Shown: positions 8,715 through 18,754 of the stretch, piece by piece
Layout of the letters: each line of letters starts with the position of its first letter
How positions within the stretch are numbered: the first letter of the stretch is position 1
Assembly: GCF_016767175.1 (NCBI RefSeq)
Contig: NZ_CP068564.1
Coordinates: 186,001-250,000 of the forward strand
Direction: 5' to 3'
DNA: 64,000 nt
Source: Keratinibaculum paraultunense
GTDB lineage: Bacteria; Bacillota; Clostridia; Tissierellales; Tepidimicrobiaceae
Program-made: the position numbers and the translations under genes
The notes under the pieces: model-generated
The model's input: the letters and a program-made list of their open reading frames with translations, nothing else
Databases searched by the model: none
Told to the model about the DNA's origin: nothing

Positions 8715-11700
8715 ATGAAGAGAAAACTATCATTACTTTTAGCAGTAGTAATGATTCTAGGGAGCTTCTCAATGGCTTTTGCAGCCGAGGAAGAAGTAAA
8801 TCCTGCGAAGTTCCTAGAAAAAGAAGGAATATTAGTAGGAAATGAATCAGGCGATTTAATGCTTGATGAGCCACTACTAAGAAGAGACGCAGTAGTTATA
8901 TTAAGTAGACTTATGAAAGCAGAAGACGAAGCAAAGAACTTTAAAGAAGAAGGTCTACCAACATTTAAAGACATAACAGACAAATACTACACACCATACT
9001 TAGCTTGGGCTCAATCCAATAAGTATATAAAAGGACACACAGAAGAAAAATTTGGTTTCAATGACAATCTAACAACTAAAGAATTTGCAGCAGTTCTTTT
9101 AAGAGCTCTAGGCTATTTAGAAGAAGCAGATGATTGGGAAGAATTATTTATAAAAGCTAAAGATTTAGGAATACTTGAAGGTGTAGAAAAAGAAGCAGAT
9201 ACAAAATTAGTAAGAAGAGAAGTAGCACAAATGATATACAACGCTCTTGGCGTTAAAATGAAAGATTCAGACAAGACATTGGCTGAATTCTTAGGAATTG
9301 AAATGCCAGAACCAAGCGTACTAGAAATAGAAGAAGTAAAAGCTGAAAACTTAAAGGAAATTACAGTAGTACTTTCCAATGCTAAATTAGTTAAAAATGA
9401 AATAGCAATAGAAGATGCAGATAACTACAGAACAAATGCTGGTAAAGTAGTAGACGTAAGACTTATTGATAATGAATTAAGATTACTATTAGATGGTGAA
9501 ATGAAACAAGGCAAGAAATATGACTTATCAATCAAAGATGTACAAAAAGAATTAGATGGTAAGTATGAATTTGTAGCTTATGATAATGAAGCACCAAAAG
9601 TAGAAGAAGTTAGAGTATTAGGTACACAAGGTATAAGAGTTACAATGTCAGAACCAGTTAAGAATCCTCATGAAAAAGACTTTAGATTAGATGGTAAAAA
9701 CTTTGTAATGAGAGTTAGAAACTATGGTAGAGATATTACTTTAATACCTTATAGAGAAAATGGAAAATTTGAAGAAGGCGAACATGAATTAACAGTAGGT
9801 CAATTAACTGACTATGCAGGATTCAAATCAAAAGAAGAAAAATTTGACATAAATATAGTAGAAGATACTACTAAACCAGTAGTTAAGAGAATAATAGCTA
9901 AAAATAATTCTGTAGTAGTTGAATTTGAACAAGAAGTACATCCAGATTCAATAAATAAGACTAATGTATCTTGGACACAAGTAAGAGGTAGAAAAGCTAC
10001 TGAAGCTGATGGATATGAAATTTTATCAGGAAATAGAGTAAAATATACTTTTGGTAAAGCAAAAGAATTACCAAAACCAGAAGTAGAAATAACAGTAAAA
10101 GGTGTTAAGAACTACTCAGGATATGAAATGGATCCACACACAGAAGTTGTACCATTAACACTAGATTTCTCAAGACCAGAAATAGTAGATTGGAAACTAC
10201 TAGATGATGATGTAATGAAATTAGTATTTAGCAAAGATTTAGACAAAAAGACAGTAGAAGATACATCCAATTATGTATTAAACAAATATAATGAAAGTAA
10301 AGAAACATATGAAGAAATAAGATATGCTGTTAAATCTGCAAAATTAGGAGATGCTAACAATATAGTATTAATTGAATTCAGTGAACCTTTTGTTCAAGGT
10401 GGAAAATATAGATTAGATGTATCAGGATTAAGAGATGACACTACTCTAAGAAATAGTATGATTGATGACGAAATATTCTTCACTTATGGAATAGGTGAAA
10501 ACTTAGATGTAACAGCAGTAGTAAAAAGAGATAAAGAACAAATTATATTACTATTCAACAAAGACTTAGTTAGAAGAGAAGCAGAAGAATTAAGAAACTA
10601 TGAATTTAGAGTAGACAATAAAGATGGCAAACTATTAAGAGCAGAAGATTTATCAAGAGAACCTAGTGTAATACTATACGGTGATGGAAGAACTGTAGAA
10701 ATCAACTTACCAGGAAACGAAAGAGATATACACTCAGTTGTATTAGGACTAAATATAACATCCTTAGATGGAAATAGAATGGAAGATAGAGAAGTTGTAC
10801 TAAAAGAATCTCGTTTAAGTATAACAAGTGCAGTATTATCTAAAGATGGTAAGACTATAACAGTAAGCTTTAACCAAGAAATAACAAAAGCACCAGAAAA
10901 AGATGAAGTAACATTAGAAGGTGCAGAGAAAGCATCAGACTTTAAAGTTGATGTAGTTAGAGGAAAATTAGAAATAACAGGATTTACAGGAGTTCCAACT
11001 AAAGTTGAGATAAAAGCAGGTTCATCAATAGAGTCTAAGTATGAAAATGGAAGTATAACTAAAAAGGCTATGAGTAAAAATATAACAGATGAAAGAGCAT
11101 TAGATGCTGAAATAGAAGCAAAACTAGATGCAGATAACGAATTAACAATAAAAGTTACACTAAACAAAACTATAACTGCAAGTCAAGAAGATAAAATAGA
11201 TGTATTAGTAGATGGTAATCTAATAGGCACTCTTGGAAGCTTTACTAGAGCTGGTAAAGAATACACACTTGAATTAAGTAATCAAGCAGGTGCTAAGAAA
11301 GTAAGAGTAGTTGGAGAAGGATTAGATGAAACAGTAGAGGTAGGACCAGCAGTACCACCAGCACCAGTAGAACCTAAAATAAGCTCAGCTAAAATAGTAA
11401 CAGCTGGACAAGATTATGAAGCAGGAGTGCAAGCAGTGCAAGCAGAATTGACTATTGATACAACAACAACAACACTTGATAATAATACTAACATAGAGAT
11501 AACATCAATAGAAGGTAGTAAATCAATATCTGATACTATAGATATTAGTGATGTACTTGATGATAATGATCCAACTAAAATAGACCTTAACAAATTAGCG
11601 ACAGCTATAGATAATTTAGGACTAGATATAACTGCAGAAGTGGTAACAGACACAAGTGGAACTAATTTAGTACTAAAAGGTTCAGAAGATGGAACAAACA

Positions 11701-12077
11701 ATATTAAATTTGAACAAAGTACTACTAGTCTAACTACTGTTAATGGTACAAATGGTACAGAAGGTAAACCAGCAGTGCCAGAAAAACAATTAATCCAACA
11801 AGAAATAGAATTTGGTTTCACTGCTGTACCAGGAATGTTAGAAATAGGGCAAAAAGTAACTATAAATGGTACTAGTAGTGGTGTTACTGGAGAAATAAAA
11901 TCAATAGATAGAACAAATAAAACTGTTGTAGTAAAATTAGATAAAGATTTAAACGATTCAACAAAAGTACAAAAATTAGCAGTAGGTGATACTATTAATT
12001 CATTTGAGGTAACAACAGAAGGATCAATAACAGTTACAATACCATTCGCAACAGCTACAGGAGTAACATTGCAATAA
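8715..12077 (+). CDS. Major S-layer protein: three SLH domains plus Ig-like repeats
   Basis: This 1,120-residue protein has a signal peptide cleaved after AFA (MKRKLSLLLAVVMILGSFSM...). Three SLH repeats span about 28-195 (for example FKDITDKYYTPYLAWAQSNKY), followed by a long array of beta-sandwich, SbsA/Big-like Ig units (VLGTQGIRVTMSEPVKNP, DDDVMKLVFSKDLDK, VLSKDGKTITVSFNQ). A proline-rich hinge (PAVPPAPVEPK) lies near 905 and the tail is Thr/Asp-rich. The architecture, the near-consensus promoter, the GGAGG ribosome site, the separate terminator and the greater use of C-ending codons (TAC, AAC, GAC) than its neighbours all suggest a very highly expressed structural S-layer subunit. It binds cell-wall polymer through the SLH domains. 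That it is the major S-layer protein is inference. Confidence 0.85.
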   Translation: MKRKLSLLLAVVMILGSFSMAFAAEEEVNPAKFLEKEGILVGNESGDLMLDEPLLRRDAVVILSRLMKAEDEAKNFKEEGLPTFKDITDKYYTPYLAWAQSNKYIKGHTEEKFGFNDNLTTKEFAAVLLRALGYLEEADDWEELFIKAKDLGILEGVEKEADTKLVRREVAQMIYNALGVKMKDSDKTLAEFLGIEMPEPSVLEIEEVKAENLKEITVVLSNAKLVKNEIAIEDADNYRTNAGKVVDVRLIDNELRLLLDGEMKQGKKYDLSIKDVQKELDGKYEFVAYDNEAPKVEEVRVLGTQGIRVTMSEPVKNPHEKDFRLDGKNFVMRVRNYGRDITLIPYRENGKFEEGEHELTVGQLTDYAGFKSKEEKFDINIVEDTTKPVVKRIIAKNNSVVVEFEQEVHPDSINKTNVSWTQVRGRKATEADGYEILSGNRVKYTFGKAKELPKPEVEITVKGVKNYSGYEMDPHTEVVPLTLDFSRPEIVDWKLLDDDVMKLVFSKDLDKKTVEDTSNYVLNKYNESKETYEEIRYAVKSAKLGDANNIVLIEFSEPFVQGGKYRLDVSGLRDDTTLRNSMIDDEIFFTYGIGENLDVTAVVKRDKEQIILLFNKDLVRREAEELRNYEFRVDNKDGKLLRAEDLSREPSVILYGDGRTVEINLPGNERDIHSVVLGLNITSLDGNRMEDREVVLKESRLSITSAVLSKDGKTITVSFNQEITKAPEKDEVTLEGAEKASDFKVDVVRGKLEITGFTGVPTKVEIKAGSSIESKYENGSITKKAMSKNITDERALDAEIEAKLDADNELTIKVTLNKTITASQEDKIDVLVDGNLIGTLGSFTRAGKEYTLELSNQAGAKKVRVVGEGLDETVEVGPAVPPAPVEPKISSAKIVTAGQDYEAGVQAVQAELTIDTTTTTLDNNTNIEITSIEGSKSISDTIDISDVLDDNDPTKIDLNKLATAIDNLGLDITAEVVTDTSGTNLVLKGSEDGTNNIKFEQSTTSLTTVNGTNGTEGKPAVPEKQLIQQEIEFGFTAVPGMLEIGQKVTINGTSSGVTGEIKSIDRTNKTVVVKLDKDLNDSTKVQKLAVGDTINSFEVTTEGSITVTIPFATATGVTLQ

Positions 12078-12225: not shown

Positions 12226-13314
12226 ATGTTTAAAAAGGATAGGTTTAAAAAGGTATTGGTTCTTTCCATAGTATTAGTACTAGCTTTAAGTACTATTGCT
12301 ATAGCTGCTAATGAGGTTTACCAGAAGAAACTTACAGCTACCATTGGTAGGATTAAGTTTAAAGTGGATGGGGAAGATGTAACAAAGGAAATTGAAGAAA
12401 AGTATAAAGCACCTGCATTTACAGTTAAAGAATTTGACAGCCGTTCTTATGTCCCTGTAAGGGCTATTGCAGAGCTTATGGGTATGGAGGTCAAATGGGA
12501 TGATAAAACTCATACAGCAGAGATTATAGATGTTAAATCCAAGGTCTATGAGGAGGAAATAAAGAAAAAGGATAAAGAAATAGCTGAATTAAAAGAGGAA
12601 ATTAAAAAATTAAAAGAAGAAGTTGTAGAAGAAGATAAATTGCAAGTTTTAGAGGATAAATTAAACAATAAATATGGTACATACAAGGATGTAAATTTTG
12701 ATATAACATTAAAAGAAAGTAAAAACAATATTGATGTGAAAATATTAATAGACTTAAAGAATTATAATCAGGAGAAATATTGGAATAAAATGGATGTTAG
12801 CACTAAAAAAGCTATGATAGAGGATATAGTGGATACTATATCTAAAGAATATACTGACTACAATATTCATGGAAATATATATGACTTATATTATAAGAAG
12901 GAATTATTTACATTTAACAAGCCTAAAATTGGCAAACTAAGCATTACCCATGATGATAGATATACTGGCGGTTCCTATGATTCCTATATAGATGAAGTAA
13001 TATATGATGAATTTTATTATTATGGAATAAAGGATGTTTATATGTCTAATCTTGATGTAGACAAATATACTATATATTTTGATATTAATATTCCTTATAG
13101 ATATAGAAGTGAATGGAGAAGTTTAAGTAAAGTTGAAAAGGAAAATATATTAGACAGGATATCCAATAGAATAATGTATGATTACTACTACGATTATTAT
13201 GATTACTATGATTATTACAGATATAAAGATGTAAAGATTAGGGTTTATGTAGATGGTGAGTATCAAGGACAATATATAAGATACTATAATGAAAGTACTG
13301 GAAGCTTTAATTAG
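12226..13314 (+). CDS. Secreted stalk-domain (copper amine oxidase N-term-like) protein with duplicated Tyr-rich module
   Basis: This 362-residue protein has a signal peptide (KKVLVLSIVLVLALSTIAIAA). Next comes a stalk domain of the copper amine oxidase N-terminal-like type at about 35-100, with its signature RSYVPVRAIAELMGMEVKWD. A Lys/Glu coiled coil follows (EEIKKKDKEIAELKEEIKKL, about 108-135). Two related units of about 90 residues come after it: one with KYWNKMDVSTKKAMIEDIVDTI, the other with SEWRSLSKVEKENILDRISN. The second contains a run of Tyr/Asp (YDYYYDYYDYYDYYRY). Stalk domains are common in exported clostridial proteins and hold domains off the wall; no enzyme activity is expected. 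RBS AGGAGGG is 7 bp before the ATG. The function of the duplicated unit is unknown. Confidence 0.75.
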   Translation: MFKKDRFKKVLVLSIVLVLALSTIAIAANEVYQKKLTATIGRIKFKVDGEDVTKEIEEKYKAPAFTVKEFDSRSYVPVRAIAELMGMEVKWDDKTHTAEIIDVKSKVYEEEIKKKDKEIAELKEEIKKLKEEVVEEDKLQVLEDKLNNKYGTYKDVNFDITLKESKNNIDVKILIDLKNYNQEKYWNKMDVSTKKAMIEDIVDTISKEYTDYNIHGNIYDLYYKKELFTFNKPKIGKLSITHDDRYTGGSYDSYIDEVIYDEFYYYGIKDVYMSNLDVDKYTIYFDINIPYRYRSEWRSLSKVEKENILDRISNRIMYDYYYDYYDYYDYYRYKDVKIRVYVDGEYQGQYIRYYNESTGSFN

Positions 13315-13355
13315 TGGGACAGGGGGTCTGACCCCCTGTCCCACTATTTTTTTTT
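13312..13355. terminator. GC-rich perfect palindrome acting as bidirectional terminator
   Basis: 16-bp perfect arms (13312-13327 TAGTGGGACAGGGGGT; 13331-13346) close on a 3-nt loop and are followed by nine T on the + strand. It begins at the stop codon of the stalk-domain gene and ends at the stop of the convergent 1,799-residue gene. It is far more GC-rich than its surroundings, which suggests a small mobile, REP-like palindrome that now serves as terminator. Confidence 0.8.
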
Positions 13356-16300
13356 CATATTATATTAGCTAGTATATTAGATAATACATTTGCAAAACTT
13401 AAATCTTTAATTCCAAATTCTTTAATTCTTATAGAGGAAGCAAGATAAATAATTCCTTTTATTTCATCTTCAAATATAATTGGTACAGCTAATAGGGAAT
13501 TCCAATCTGGCAATCCAGTAATATTATCATATCTTTCTACTTTATCCCAATCTATCATATAAACACCTTGTTTAGTTTCAATTACAGATTCTACTATATT
13601 TTGATTATAATCAATGTTATCTATCCACTGTTCTTTATGAATTTTTCTTCCATATTTTTTTACTATTTTTCCATTATTGATTAGAAATATTATTCCTAAT
13701 TGTGCTTCCAACAGTTCTATAACCCTTCCAATAAAATAATAAATCTTTTTATCTTTATCTATATTTTTGGTGCTAAGTTCTATTAATTCTATAATAGCTA
13801 AAACATTTCTTGAGTCATGCACTTCATTTCCTGTTAAAATTCCATCTATAGTATTTATTGGCTTAACTATATTTGAAAAACTTTCATTCCAAAGTTGAGA
13901 TCTATTTTTGCCGGTTTCTTTAGCAATGTATAATGCTTGGTCTACTTTTTCTATAAGTTCATTTGTAGTCTGCCCATGAGCGGGATAAGATGCTACTCCC
14001 ATACTTACAGTAATATCTATTTCTTCTGCTAGTATTTTTTCATTTTCAATTTTTTTTCTTAAATTTTCTGCTATAGTTAAAGCTTCATCAGCATCAGTAT
14101 TGGGAAGTATTATTAAAAATTCTTCTCCTCCATATCTTCCTAGAATACCTTTAGAATTTATACTGTTCATAACAATTTTTGAAATTTTTTGTAATACTTT
14201 ATCACCTGTTAAATGTCCAAATTTGTCATTTACTCTTTTAAAGCTATCTAAATCATACATTATTATGCTAAATGTTTCACTATTATTTCTTGCTCTATTT
14301 AATACATTTTGTAAAGTATCTTCTAAATATTTTCTAGTTAATGCTCCTGTTAATTTATCAGTAGAAGCTTCAATTTCTAGTTTGCGTTTTTCTAATATTA
14401 AATATAATAAATTGGAAAAATGTAAACATATTTCAAGTCCTTTTTTATTTATGTTATTGAGCACTTTATTAGATTCTAAATATAGATAACCTAATATGCT
14501 TTGAGTAGAGGTTGAATTATTATTAATGATTGGCATGCATAAGTATGCCTTTTTATCTTTTAATAAATAATCAATGTCATTGTTTTTATATGTTTCTTTG
14601 TTTGATACTAAAATGGGTTCTTTTGTTGCTCTTATTTTATCAAAAATGTATTTATTATCTAAAATATTAAAATCATTTCCAATAGAATAAATTATATTTA
14701 AATCTTGTTTTTGTCCTTCTATAATTATTGCTCCTTTTGTGGCTAAGGTTATTGAAATTAAATATTTAGTTATCATGTCAATATCTTGGCTAGTATTACC
14801 AGTTAAATTTGCCAAAATATCCTTTTCAGTGTATATACCTTTTGGCATAAGCTGTTTGCTTAAAAAGTATAAAAAGTTCTTATTATTAATAAATTTATTT
14901 ATAGAATTGTTGTTTATTAATTCATTTAATTCTTCATGAGAATTTATATAAATATTAGTTTCAAATTTTGTATTATTTAAAACATTGCATTCATCAATAT
15001 ATTTTATTCTATAAAAGGGTAAACCAAGTTTATAATTATTTACAAATTTAAGCCTAAATTCTTTTGGAATTTGATATATTAATTTTTTAATTGTATTGCA
15101 AGCTTCTATATAATAGCTTACAGCTAGATAGTAGTTTTTTTGATTAAAATAATAATTACCTAATTCAATATTTATATTTGCAGTAAGTTTTTTACTTTTT
15201 TCTTTTTCAGCTAATTCTAGTGCTTTTTCAAGCATTAGTTTTGAGTTATTTTCTTCAACAATGGCTTTAGTATAGTAATATTTAGCTTTAATTTTAGAAT
15301 CAATTGATTTTGATATGTATTCTTCAGCTTTTGCTAATAATTTTTTGCTATTTTTAGTATCTTTTTTTTCTTTTAATATTACTGCAGTTTCGCACAATCT
15401 ATTTATTTTTAAATTGTGATCTTTAAGTTTATTTATATAAGTTAAAAATTCTTCAATATTAGAATCATAAGTATTTTTTTGTTTCAATCTTATACTAATT
15501 ATGTTAGAATCAATTACATTATATATATTTAAAGCATTATCTTTACTTTCATAAAAGCTGATTGCTTTAGAATAAAATTCATTTGCTTTTTCAAAGTCTC
15601 CATAAGCATTAAATAAATTTCCTGCTGATCTATAAAATTGGGGTATATATATTCCTCGATCTGGGTATTTTTCTAAATATTGTTTAGATAGTTTATAATA
15701 ATTATATGCTTCGTAATAGTTATCCATATCTACGCATAAATCAATTAATGAAATATATAAATAGAAAATCATATCTCGGTTGTCTAAATCTAGTGATTTT
15801 TCTAAAGCAATTTTAAAATGCTTGTAGGCTTTATCATAATTTAATTTAACATAATGAATAGATGCAATATTTATTAGTCCCAGCATTTCACCATTGATTA
15901 AATTATATTCTTCTCCTAAATTTCTAACTTTGATAAAGTAGTTTAATGCTTCTTCCAAATCATGATAATAATCTGAATAGATAGTTCCAATATTATTTAA
16001 TGCAATCAATATTCCTCTTGTATAATTGATTTTTTTAAACAATTCTATACTTTTTTTATATAATTCTACTGCTTCTTCAGTTTTATTTAAATGAGCGTAT
16101 GCAAAGGCTAAGCTCCTATAAGCATTTCCTTTTATTTTATCAAATTTATTACCACACTCATCAATTACTTCTAATAAAAGCTTTATACTTTCATTAAACA
16201 TATTTTTAGTTATAAGTTGAGTTGCTTTAATTCTTTTTAATTCTAAACTAGCTTTTTGATATTCAAAGTTCTCTAATGCTTTTTCTACTTTTTTTGTATA

Positions 16301-18754
16301 CTGTACAGTTTCTTCAGTCTTATAAAAAGAGTCTAATATTAGTGCAATATTTATATATATATCTATCAAATGTTTTTGATTTTTTGTTATTTTTGCTAGT
16401 TTTTCTGCTTTTTTAAAGTAATCCATTGCTAATTGAAATTTTTCAGTTTCTAAGTAAAGTGTTCCTAATCGTATTAGCAATTCAGTTTTTTCAAGTATAT
16501 TTGTGTTATCTGTAAATGAAATAGCTTTTTCTAAATTTTTAATTTCACCTTCAATATTTTTTAAATCTCGCATTTTTTCAGCATTTTTTAGACAATACTC
16601 TTTTGCTTTTAATTTATTATTTGAATTTTCTAGATGAAATATTATTTCATCAATACTAGGATTTAAATATTTTCCATCTTCAATTAAATCAGCTGCTATT
16701 TTATGTTTTTCAATTTTTTCTTTTTTGTCCATTTTGTTATATACTATGAATTTAAGCATTTTATTGTTTATATCATAAACAAAGTGTTCATCTTTGATTA
16801 TCTTATCTAATATTCCTTTATTGACTAATTTATCAATTAATTCTTTTAATTTATGCTTTTTTATATCAATAAATTCAAATATAATTTCTATGGGTATAGG
16901 ATTATTAAAAATAGAGATTATTTTTAATATTTCATAACTAACATTATCTAAATCTTTTAATTGTTTCAATAGTACTTCTTTTATATTTTTAGGTATTTTT
17001 AAGTATTCATAATAAGAATCTTCATCTTCTGATTTTTTTATATCAATGTTCCATAGTCCATTTTTATCATTTATATATATTTTTTTACTGTTAAATAACT
17101 CTTTTAAAATTTCAACTGTAAAAAGTGGATTGCCTTTGGATTGAGCATATATTCTACTTGAAAAAAATACAGGTGTATAGTGCATAGACATTGTTTCTTT
17201 AATTAGTTCTCCAGTTTCTTTTAAAGTTAAGTTTTTCATATAAATAGTTTCAGAGTCTTTTCTATTGCTAATATTTTTAATAAATTTTAAAAATTCTTCA
17301 CGTTCTAAAGCATTTCCTTCTTGGTAAGCAAATATTAACATTATATTTTTATTATCTAAAATAGTTTCACATAAATAAGTGAAAGTATTCAAAGTAAATT
17401 TATTTCCATAATTAATATCATCAATTATAAATACGGAAGGCTTGTTTTTTATGCTATCGTTTATGAATGAAACAATTCTATTCAATAATCTATATTCTAC
17501 AGTAGAGTCCATTAAATATTCTGAATCAGCATAAGACAATGTATCCTGTTTATTCATTGTTTCAGGAAGAAATTTTATAAGTTCATGCTTATATTTTTCA
17601 ATAGGTTCAGTATCAGATTCAGATATTAATTTTTTAACTAATTCAGTCCACAATTTATTATTGTTATCTTTTGAATTATTTAAAGCAAAGCTAGAGTAAA
17701 CTTTTGCATTTTTTAATTCTAATAGAAATTGTATTTCATTTAAAAAACGAGTTTTACCTGTACCTAAATCTCCATTTATTAAGAAAATTTTTTTACTAGG
17801 CTTAAATTCTATCATAGAGTTATAGGCTTTTACTATTTTGTTAATCTCATCTTCTCTATTTATTAATTTTGTACGTAAATTAAGTTTTTCTAATTCTTTT
17901 TTACAAAAAATTTTATAATTTTTGTTTAAAATGTTATTTAATCTGGAAACAAAATTATATATGTAATCTTTTTTATAAGGTTCATTAGAGGTAATAAATT
18001 CTTCAATAACTGAAAGTATTTGAATTATATAATCAATTTCTTTAGAAGTATAGTTAGTATTATTGTTTTTAATTTCTTCCATAAAAGATTGCAAGTCTTC
18101 TTTTGGATTTAATTCAGGATTTTTCTTTCGAAGCATTGTTAGCAGTATAATAGATAGAGAATATATATCAGATTTTCTGCTGGAGTTATTTTCAAATAAA
18201 GCAGTAGGGGATTTAAAATATGAATTATGTATTTTATTGTCCATGTAATAATTTTTTTCTAATTCTACTGTGGCTAGATCATTAAGTTTTATTTCGTAGT
18301 CTTTATTTTTTTCTGCAACAAAAATATTGTTTAAATTTAATTCATTATAAGTATAGCCTTTTAGATGAAGATAATTTACAGCACTGCATATTTCAATAAA
18401 CACATCTATAATTTCAAAGAGGTTCATATTTGAGATGAACTTTAATAGTCTCTTGGGTTTTTCAATGTACTCGTATGTATAAAAATATTGTTCTTCTTTG
18501 GCTTCTCTATTGTTAATTTTTAATACTCTATTAAAGTAGTAATCTTTAAGTATATTGCTACAATTGAGATTTACTAAGGATACAAATTCTTTTGAATAAA
18601 AATCTATCAATGAGCTTGGTGCAAAGTTAGCATTTATTATAGTTAGATTCATTTTTTTATTTTTATTCCATAGGTCTAAAGCTGTATAAGTTGAGAACAT
18701 CATATTTTGTTCTTCAATTTTAATTATTCTATATCGGTTATTGAGCAGTTCCAT
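13355..18754 (-). CDS. Pseudokinase-ATPase-TPR-GAF-GGDEF-GAF signalling protein (putative diguanylate cyclase)
   Basis: 1,799 residues. Residues 1-275 have a Ser/Thr-kinase fold, but the HRDxKxxN catalytic loop reads YNELNLNN (136-143) and DFG reads DLA (159-161), so it is probably a pseudokinase. Residues 295-600 hold an AAA/STAND-type ATPase with Walker A GDLGTGKT (about 328-335) and Walker B FIIDD (about 442-446). About 740-1290 is TPR-like helical repeats. A GAF domain follows (about 1290-1445), then a GGDEF domain with GRYGGEEF (1542-1546) that should be active for c-di-GMP synthesis. The upstream RxxD inhibitory site is replaced by NSKG. A second GAF-like domain ends the protein (about 1650-1799). 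No membrane segment is seen, so it is probably cytoplasmic. Strong RBS AGGAGGTACC precedes the ATG. It is a lone gene, convergent with the stalk-domain gene. Ligands are unknown. Confidence 0.85.
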   Translation of the reverse strand: MELLNNRYRIIKIEEQNMMFSTYTALDLWNKNKKMNLTIINANFAPSSLIDFYSKEFVSLVNLNCSNILKDYYFNRVLKINNREAKEEQYFYTYEYIEKPKRLLKFISNMNLFEIIDVFIEICSAVNYLHLKGYTYNELNLNNIFVAEKNKDYEIKLNDLATVELEKNYYMDNKIHNSYFKSPTALFENNSSRKSDIYSLSIILLTMLRKKNPELNPKEDLQSFMEEIKNNNTNYTSKEIDYIIQILSVIEEFITSNEPYKKDYIYNFVSRLNNILNKNYKIFCKKELEKLNLRTKLINREDEINKIVKAYNSMIEFKPSKKIFLINGDLGTGKTRFLNEIQFLLELKNAKVYSSFALNNSKDNNNKLWTELVKKLISESDTEPIEKYKHELIKFLPETMNKQDTLSYADSEYLMDSTVEYRLLNRIVSFINDSIKNKPSVFIIDDINYGNKFTLNTFTYLCETILDNKNIMLIFAYQEGNALEREEFLKFIKNISNRKDSETIYMKNLTLKETGELIKETMSMHYTPVFFSSRIYAQSKGNPLFTVEILKELFNSKKIYINDKNGLWNIDIKKSEDEDSYYEYLKIPKNIKEVLLKQLKDLDNVSYEILKIISIFNNPIPIEIIFEFIDIKKHKLKELIDKLVNKGILDKIIKDEHFVYDINNKMLKFIVYNKMDKKEKIEKHKIAADLIEDGKYLNPSIDEIIFHLENSNNKLKAKEYCLKNAEKMRDLKNIEGEIKNLEKAISFTDNTNILEKTELLIRLGTLYLETEKFQLAMDYFKKAEKLAKITKNQKHLIDIYINIALILDSFYKTEETVQYTKKVEKALENFEYQKASLELKRIKATQLITKNMFNESIKLLLEVIDECGNKFDKIKGNAYRSLAFAYAHLNKTEEAVELYKKSIELFKKINYTRGILIALNNIGTIYSDYYHDLEEALNYFIKVRNLGEEYNLINGEMLGLINIASIHYVKLNYDKAYKHFKIALEKSLDLDNRDMIFYLYISLIDLCVDMDNYYEAYNYYKLSKQYLEKYPDRGIYIPQFYRSAGNLFNAYGDFEKANEFYSKAISFYESKDNALNIYNVIDSNIISIRLKQKNTYDSNIEEFLTYINKLKDHNLKINRLCETAVILKEKKDTKNSKKLLAKAEEYISKSIDSKIKAKYYYTKAIVEENNSKLMLEKALELAEKEKSKKLTANINIELGNYYFNQKNYYLAVSYYIEACNTIKKLIYQIPKEFRLKFVNNYKLGLPFYRIKYIDECNVLNNTKFETNIYINSHEELNELINNNSINKFINNKNFLYFLSKQLMPKGIYTEKDILANLTGNTSQDIDMITKYLISITLATKGAIIIEGQKQDLNIIYSIGNDFNILDNKYIFDKIRATKEPILVSNKETYKNNDIDYLLKDKKAYLCMPIINNNSTSTQSILGYLYLESNKVLNNINKKGLEICLHFSNLLYLILEKRKLEIEASTDKLTGALTRKYLEDTLQNVLNRARNNSETFSIIMYDLDSFKRVNDKFGHLTGDKVLQKISKIVMNSINSKGILGRYGGEEFLIILPNTDADEALTIAENLRKKIENEKILAEEIDITVSMGVASYPAHGQTTNELIEKVDQALYIAKETGKNRSQLWNESFSNIVKPINTIDGILTGNEVHDSRNVLAIIELIELSTKNIDKDKKIYYFIGRVIELLEAQLGIIFLINNGKIVKKYGRKIHKEQWIDNIDYNQNIVESVIETKQGVYMIDWDKVERYDNITGLPDWNSLLAVPIIFEDEIKGIIYLASSIRIKEFGIKDLSFANVLSNILANII

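Follow-up and report, generated by a model that had tools for sequence, protein, structure and literature searches.

Pseudokinase-STAND-TPR-GAF Scaffold Joined to a GGEEF Cyclase in Keratinibaculum paraultunense and Other Clostridia

Related multidomain proteins and the layout of the window protein

Bacteria and some fungi commonly encode proteins that combine a kinase, a STAND-like ATPase, TPR repeats, and GAF domains; these proteins are poorly understood. The cyanobacterial 'dual kinases' HstK and cbSTKIII (PMC2176072) and the CHK1-type kinases (Pfam TPR_CHK1) carry an N-terminal Hanks-type kinase, GAF, and a C-terminal signaling output. A 2005 survey (PMC1262709) listed a 1,826-aa 'Kinase + 6 TPR repeats + GGDEF' protein of C. 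thermocellum ATCC 27405 (gi 23020879). Because this survey excluded sequences judged to be without the catalytic Asp, the protein was presumably taken as a Ser/Thr kinase. DcsBis (4zmu) is a GAF-GGDEF cyclase with a chain of 338 residues.

The window is the whole stretch of DNA that was analyzed, 64,000 nucleotides of the Keratinibaculum paraultunense genome (NZ_CP068564.1, positions 186,001 to 250,000). An open reading frame on its minus strand has 1,799 codons, an ATG start, and no internal stop. Pfam matched Pkinase (residues 55–227, E 2e-13), AAA_16 (297–464, E 9e-8), TPR_12 and other repeats (about 877–1107), GGDEF (1463–1618, E 2e-43), and GAF (1678–1798, E 6e-8) in the protein. AlphaFold models were built from alignments of the collected homologous loci. 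The features are as follows, in window coordinates:

13355–18754, minus strand: whole ORF, pseudokinase-STAND-TPR-GAF-GGEEF-GAF protein, 1,799 aa, no transmembrane helix (ORF, Pfam, hydropathy scan)
17897–18754, minus strand: pseudokinase domain, residues 1–286 (Pfam, AlphaFold, VIA Z 23.3, motif table)
17135–17866, minus strand: AAA_16/STAND-like P-loop NTPase, residues 297–540 (Pfam, invariant columns)
16685–17002, minus strand: winged-helix-like helical module after the NTPase, residues 585–690 (AlphaFold, Foldseek)
14885–16657, minus strand: TPR/helical repeat array, residues about 700–1290, best TPR_12 at 877–945 (Pfam)
14435–14842, minus strand: first GAF-like domain, residues about 1305–1440 (AlphaFold, profile match to PDE2A, hhalign to GAF2, alignment)
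14363–14446, minus strand: long signaling helix joining GAF1 to the cyclase, residues 1437–1464 (AlphaFold)
13901–14368, minus strand: GGDEF diguanylate cyclase, GGEEF 1542–1546, metal Asp 1501 (Pfam E 2e-43, VIA Z 26)
13358–13831, minus strand: C-terminal GAF, residues about 1642–1799, with family-specific IDW...PxW...KEF motifs (Pfam E 6e-8, alignment)

The order is thus a kinase fold, a P-loop AAA_16/STAND-like NTPase with a winged helix, a TPR array, a GAF domain, a GGEEF cyclase, and a second GAF domain. An earlier note had described a single 1,799-residue protein with an intact P-loop, a TPR array, two GAF domains, and a GGEEF motif, and the ORF, Pfam, and the models confirm it. The model of residues 1–690 is confident (pLDDT 87, pTM 0.87), whereas that of residues 1290–1799 combines a pLDDT of 85 with a pTM of 0.50, which makes the placement of its domains unsure. 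A 19-residue hydropathy scan found no transmembrane segment in the protein, which is probably cytoplasmic because the highest value was only 1.76, inside GAF2. A strong terminator-like hairpin of 16 pairs is located at 13312–13346, where it separates the end of the cyclase gene from a gene for a protein with a copper-amine-oxidase N-domain. The product of 8715–12077 in the window has 1,120 residues, a signal-like sequence at its N-terminus, and no Pfam match at 0.001.

To the extent of the survey's listing, the C. thermocellum protein has the domain order and length of the window protein, but the survey's architecture, which is the only description used here, includes neither an ATPase nor a GAF domain. 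Given this 2005 listing (PMC1262709) and dozens of full-length homologues, the earlier suggestion of an undescribed signaling architecture is not supported in that form. In contrast to HstK and the CHK1-type kinases, the window protein ends its signaling part in a GGEEF domain (GGDEF by Pfam) instead of a HisKA/HATPase histidine kinase, has lost kinase residues, and carries a second GAF domain after the output. DcsBis has the same GAF-helix-GGDEF arrangement, but its chain is too short to include a kinase, an NTPase, a TPR part, or a C-terminal GAF as well. Clostridial relatives that end in a histidine kinase share AAA_16 and repeats with the window protein. Two clostridial proteins of the kinase-AAA_16-GAF-GGDEF type, L116 and L117, have the same order through GGDEF, but their kinase motifs are intact (HKD, DFG) and they lie on a separate branch near histidine kinase-ending proteins. 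The window protein is read here, with a probability of about 0.6, as a cytoplasmic diguanylate cyclase that integrates signals on a pseudokinase-STAND-TPR-GAF scaffold, in which the kinase fold does not phosphorylate.

Kinase fold, NTPase, and cyclase

Structure prediction of the N-terminal part, which the earlier note had set as a check, gave a complete kinase fold over residues 1–280 of the 1–690 model. Its VIA Z was 23.3 to WNK3 (5o23, 2.8 Å over 247 residues) and about 21 against PknB and PknA. Threonine (Thr38) occupies the place of the beta3 Lys, the HRD trio reads YNE with Glu138 at the catalytic Asp position, and the Gly-rich loop is gone. The catalytic-loop Asn143 is kept, and DFG, now D159-L-A, retains its metal-binding Asp. 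The loss of HRD claimed earlier is therefore correct, while the claimed loss of DFG applies only to its Phe-Gly. A kinase fold without one or more catalytic residues is a pseudokinase, and the window domain is one; it does not hold the set of beta3 Lys, HRD Asp, Asn, and DFG Asp of an active Hanks-type kinase. The absent Lys and HRD Asp rule out an ordinary active kinase for the window protein. A WNK-like displaced Lys, considered because WNK3 was the top VIA match, was also ruled out, as the beta2 strand of the window protein shows no Lys.

Among 69 family kinase domains, the Lys is retained in 39, the HRD Asp in 3, the Asn in 43, and the DFG Asp in 55. Three of the four residues occur together in 29 domains, and all four in none. 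As GGEEF and the P-loop are near-invariant and the family forms one clade, the catalytic death of the kinase looks ancient, with the fold retained. In the Acetivibrio mesophilus protein (L083, 1,829 aa), which is inside the family clade, FKNLDH stands in place of HRDLK and the Asp is absent at that site. C. thermocellum is now classified in the genus Acetivibrio. Kinase death across the whole family is apparently previously undescribed; the literature searched, which included few subscription papers and no preprints, contained nothing relevant on pseudokinases with GGDEF and no functional study of any family member.

The retention of the DFG Asp (55/69), Asn171 (43/69), and three of four residues (29/69) would also suit a kinase-like domain that is active by an unusual route, with Glu138 or a shifted Asp as the base, and that controls the cyclase by phosphorylation in cis or trans. 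The pairing of an intact kinase with GGDEF in the sister proteins L116 and L117 points the same way. Nevertheless, this activity is improbable, because the HRD Asp survives in 3 of 69 domains, the window protein has Thr for the beta3 Lys and no Gly loop, the DFG Gly is Ala or Ile, and degeneration varies between members as expected without selection on catalysis. Less improbable, yet still unlikely, is a nucleotide sensor that binds ATP or ADP without transfer and reports the energy state to the cyclase. Many relatives keep the Lys, Asn, and DFG Asp and have lost the catalytic Asp alone, which is compatible with such a sensor, but the window protein also lacks the Lys and Gly loop and is expected to have weak nucleotide affinity. 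It is plausible that the pseudokinase acts as a ligand- or partner-binding switch.

The NTPase contains Walker A GDLGTGKT (328–335) and Walker B FIIDD, and GNP (541–543) follows directly after the domain. The glycines and lysine of the P-loop are near-invariant across the family alignment. Foldseek matched the NTPase-winged helix part to Cdc6/Orc1 (2qby, E 1e-8), in keeping with AAA+ plus a winged helix. The series GxxGxGKT, IIDD, GNP, winged helix (the 2qby match), and repeats is that of a STAND/AAA_16 protein, although AAA_16 and GNP also occur in other AAA+ proteins.

The cyclase domain resembles many diguanylate cyclase structures (VIA Z about 26) and keeps the fold, the GGEEF motif, and the metal residues (D1501, N1509). 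In the family alignment, the first Glu of GGEEF is present in 75 of 76 proteins and the second in all 76. At the RxxD I-site, which is common but not obligatory, the window protein has N1533 and G1536, while the Arg is present in 73/76 and the Asp in 74/76 aligned proteins. The first GAF domain has no Pfam match; it was recognized from the AlphaFold model and from two weak matches, one to a PDE2A profile (E 0.0016) and one by hhalign to GAF2 (68% probability). The alignment shows that the conserved RRK loop of GAF1 in relatives is missing from the window protein. Judged from the alignment, the I-site and RRK-loop losses are local to the window copy and not family design. The absence of RxxD noted earlier is thus real here, but not as a design feature, since 73–74 of 76 aligned proteins keep the I-site. 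With the I-site missing, the window copy probably lacks the usual product inhibition.

Family, scaffold relatives, and origin of the window copy

Full-length relatives with about 30% identity were found in about 33 of 61 related genomes, which rules out an undescribed singleton. At class level, roughly 45 of 391 genomes carry the family when near full-length kinase-NTPase matches are counted. It ranges over Tissierellales-like and other Clostridia and is sporadic elsewhere in the phylum, with members in Tissierella, Alkaliphilus, Caloranaerobacter, Geosporobacter, Acetivibrio, Clostridium, Paenibacillus, and Fusibacter. In the plasmid collection, only one record, of 2.6 Mb, gave a match, and this was confined to the C-terminal part. 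With intact-kinase relatives as a rooted outgroup, the family forms a single clade (support 100/100), and the window protein belongs to it by full-length collinear homology and position in this clade. The clostridial pseudokinase-STAND-GGDEF family is conserved and apparently uncharacterized.

Clostridial relatives with kinase plus AAA_16 differ in their C-termini. L114, L115, L119, L121, and L123 end in a histidine kinase and have an intact kinase; L125, L126, and L130 have the same end and a degenerate kinase; L116 and L117 combine an intact kinase with a GGDEF end. In L129, the same scaffold appears by eye to carry a LuxR-like C-terminus. These assignments come from Pfam for L115, L116, L117, L119, and L125 and from the alignment for the remaining proteins. 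They support the earlier statement that kinase-ATPase-GAF plans usually end in a histidine kinase, in that such relatives often do. As proteins on one scaffold end in either a histidine kinase or GGDEF, the output seems swappable, and the position of L116 and L117 near histidine kinase-ending proteins in the tree suggests that GGDEF was joined to the scaffold more than once. The degenerate kinases of the histidine kinase-ending L125 and L126 likewise suggest that kinase death occurred more than once. In both of these proteins, the degenerate kinase is without an N-lobe. In Treponema putidum (L102, 218–10534), there are seemingly two tandem related copies, each split across two or three ORFs, which suggests broken genes or sequencing frameshifts.

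In relatives, the family cyclase gene usually follows genes for a YegS-like kinase and MarR and is followed by LacI, histidine-degradation genes, CheW, DegS, and DegU; genes for bactofilin and M23 peptidase are often close by. Synteny with MarR, LacI, CheW, and DegS/DegU holds for most relatives, and the window copy is outside it. The K. paraultunense genome has this neighborhood intact at about 1.2145–1.232 Mb, where about 16 bases separate the MarR stop from the LacI start (L139 12669–12686, C1 about 1.227 Mb). A tblastn search of this locus found no remnant of a lost cyclase. In a genus-mate (L064), the family gene lies between MarR and LacI, and the flanking proteins are 82–86% identical. 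The window copy groups with Clostridium proteins (support 100/99), and vertical inheritance with the host family was rejected (AU p 2e-5). The simplest reading of the trees and gene order is that the native gene was lost and that a Clostridium-like version is present, either by transfer or as an old duplicate.

At 0.228, the window copy has a lower GC content than any other of the 29 window genes tested, and its identity is about 30% even to family relatives. Together with the lost I-site and RRK loop and the location outside the family locus, this could indicate an acquired gene that is decaying and has little function. Such decay is the least probable of the readings considered here, since 1,799 codons run without a stop, the family-invariant cyclase and P-loop residues are all intact, and codon usage is typical of the window. 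For a functional cyclase, the AT-rich, divergent sequence without the I-site and RRK loop means that regulation of the window copy may have changed.

Possible mechanism and the c-di-GMP setting of the host

In STAND proteins, ligand binding at the repeats releases the NTPase, which then oligomerizes. By analogy, it can be hypothesized for the signal-integrating cyclase that the TPR array, and the GAF domains, would sense a partner or small molecule and thereby free the STAND-like P-loop NTPase for ATP binding and self-association. Self-association would pair two GGEEF domains via the GAF1 signaling helix, and c-di-GMP would be made. The kinase-fold domain, which would not phosphorylate, may sit on the NTPase from the N-terminal side and serve there as a lid, a docking surface, or a nucleotide sensor. 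For the window protein, the NTPase-driven oligomerization, what the pseudokinase does, the signal that is sensed, and the physiological effect are inferred. A wider proposal is that, throughout a widespread clostridial family, the dead Hanks kinase has been kept as the fixed regulatory lid of a STAND NTPase, which in turn drives the synthesis of c-di-GMP. The result would be an NLR-like switch with a cyclic-dinucleotide cyclase as its output, which lineages could exchange by losing the native gene and taking up a distant one; this proposal is tentative, with the odds somewhat against it.

The predicted output of the family is one measurable small molecule, c-di-GMP, and with a kinase that is dead family-wide, what the N-terminal domain does can be studied apart from phosphorylation. 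Four GGDEF genes occur in the host genome, and the only EAL domain shares a reading frame with one of them. As the window gene is one of only four, a knockout could show a clear phenotype in pili and motility. Within the window, no c-di-GMP riboswitch was found at the gathering threshold, and only two tRNAs were returned. The genome has a single c-di-GMP-I riboswitch (L108 1791–1880; C1:950290-950379), with a type IV pilin-like gene about 140 bases downstream, and one PilZ gene, located between FlhG- and CheB-like genes; the names of these neighboring genes were read from sequence. In C. difficile, traits of this kind are under the control of c-di-GMP riboswitches (PMC6200980, PMC6366702). In K. 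paraultunense, c-di-GMP would be read by the riboswitch upstream of the pilin gene and by the PilZ protein of the flagellar operon, so that the host cell would probably change from swimming to an attached state.
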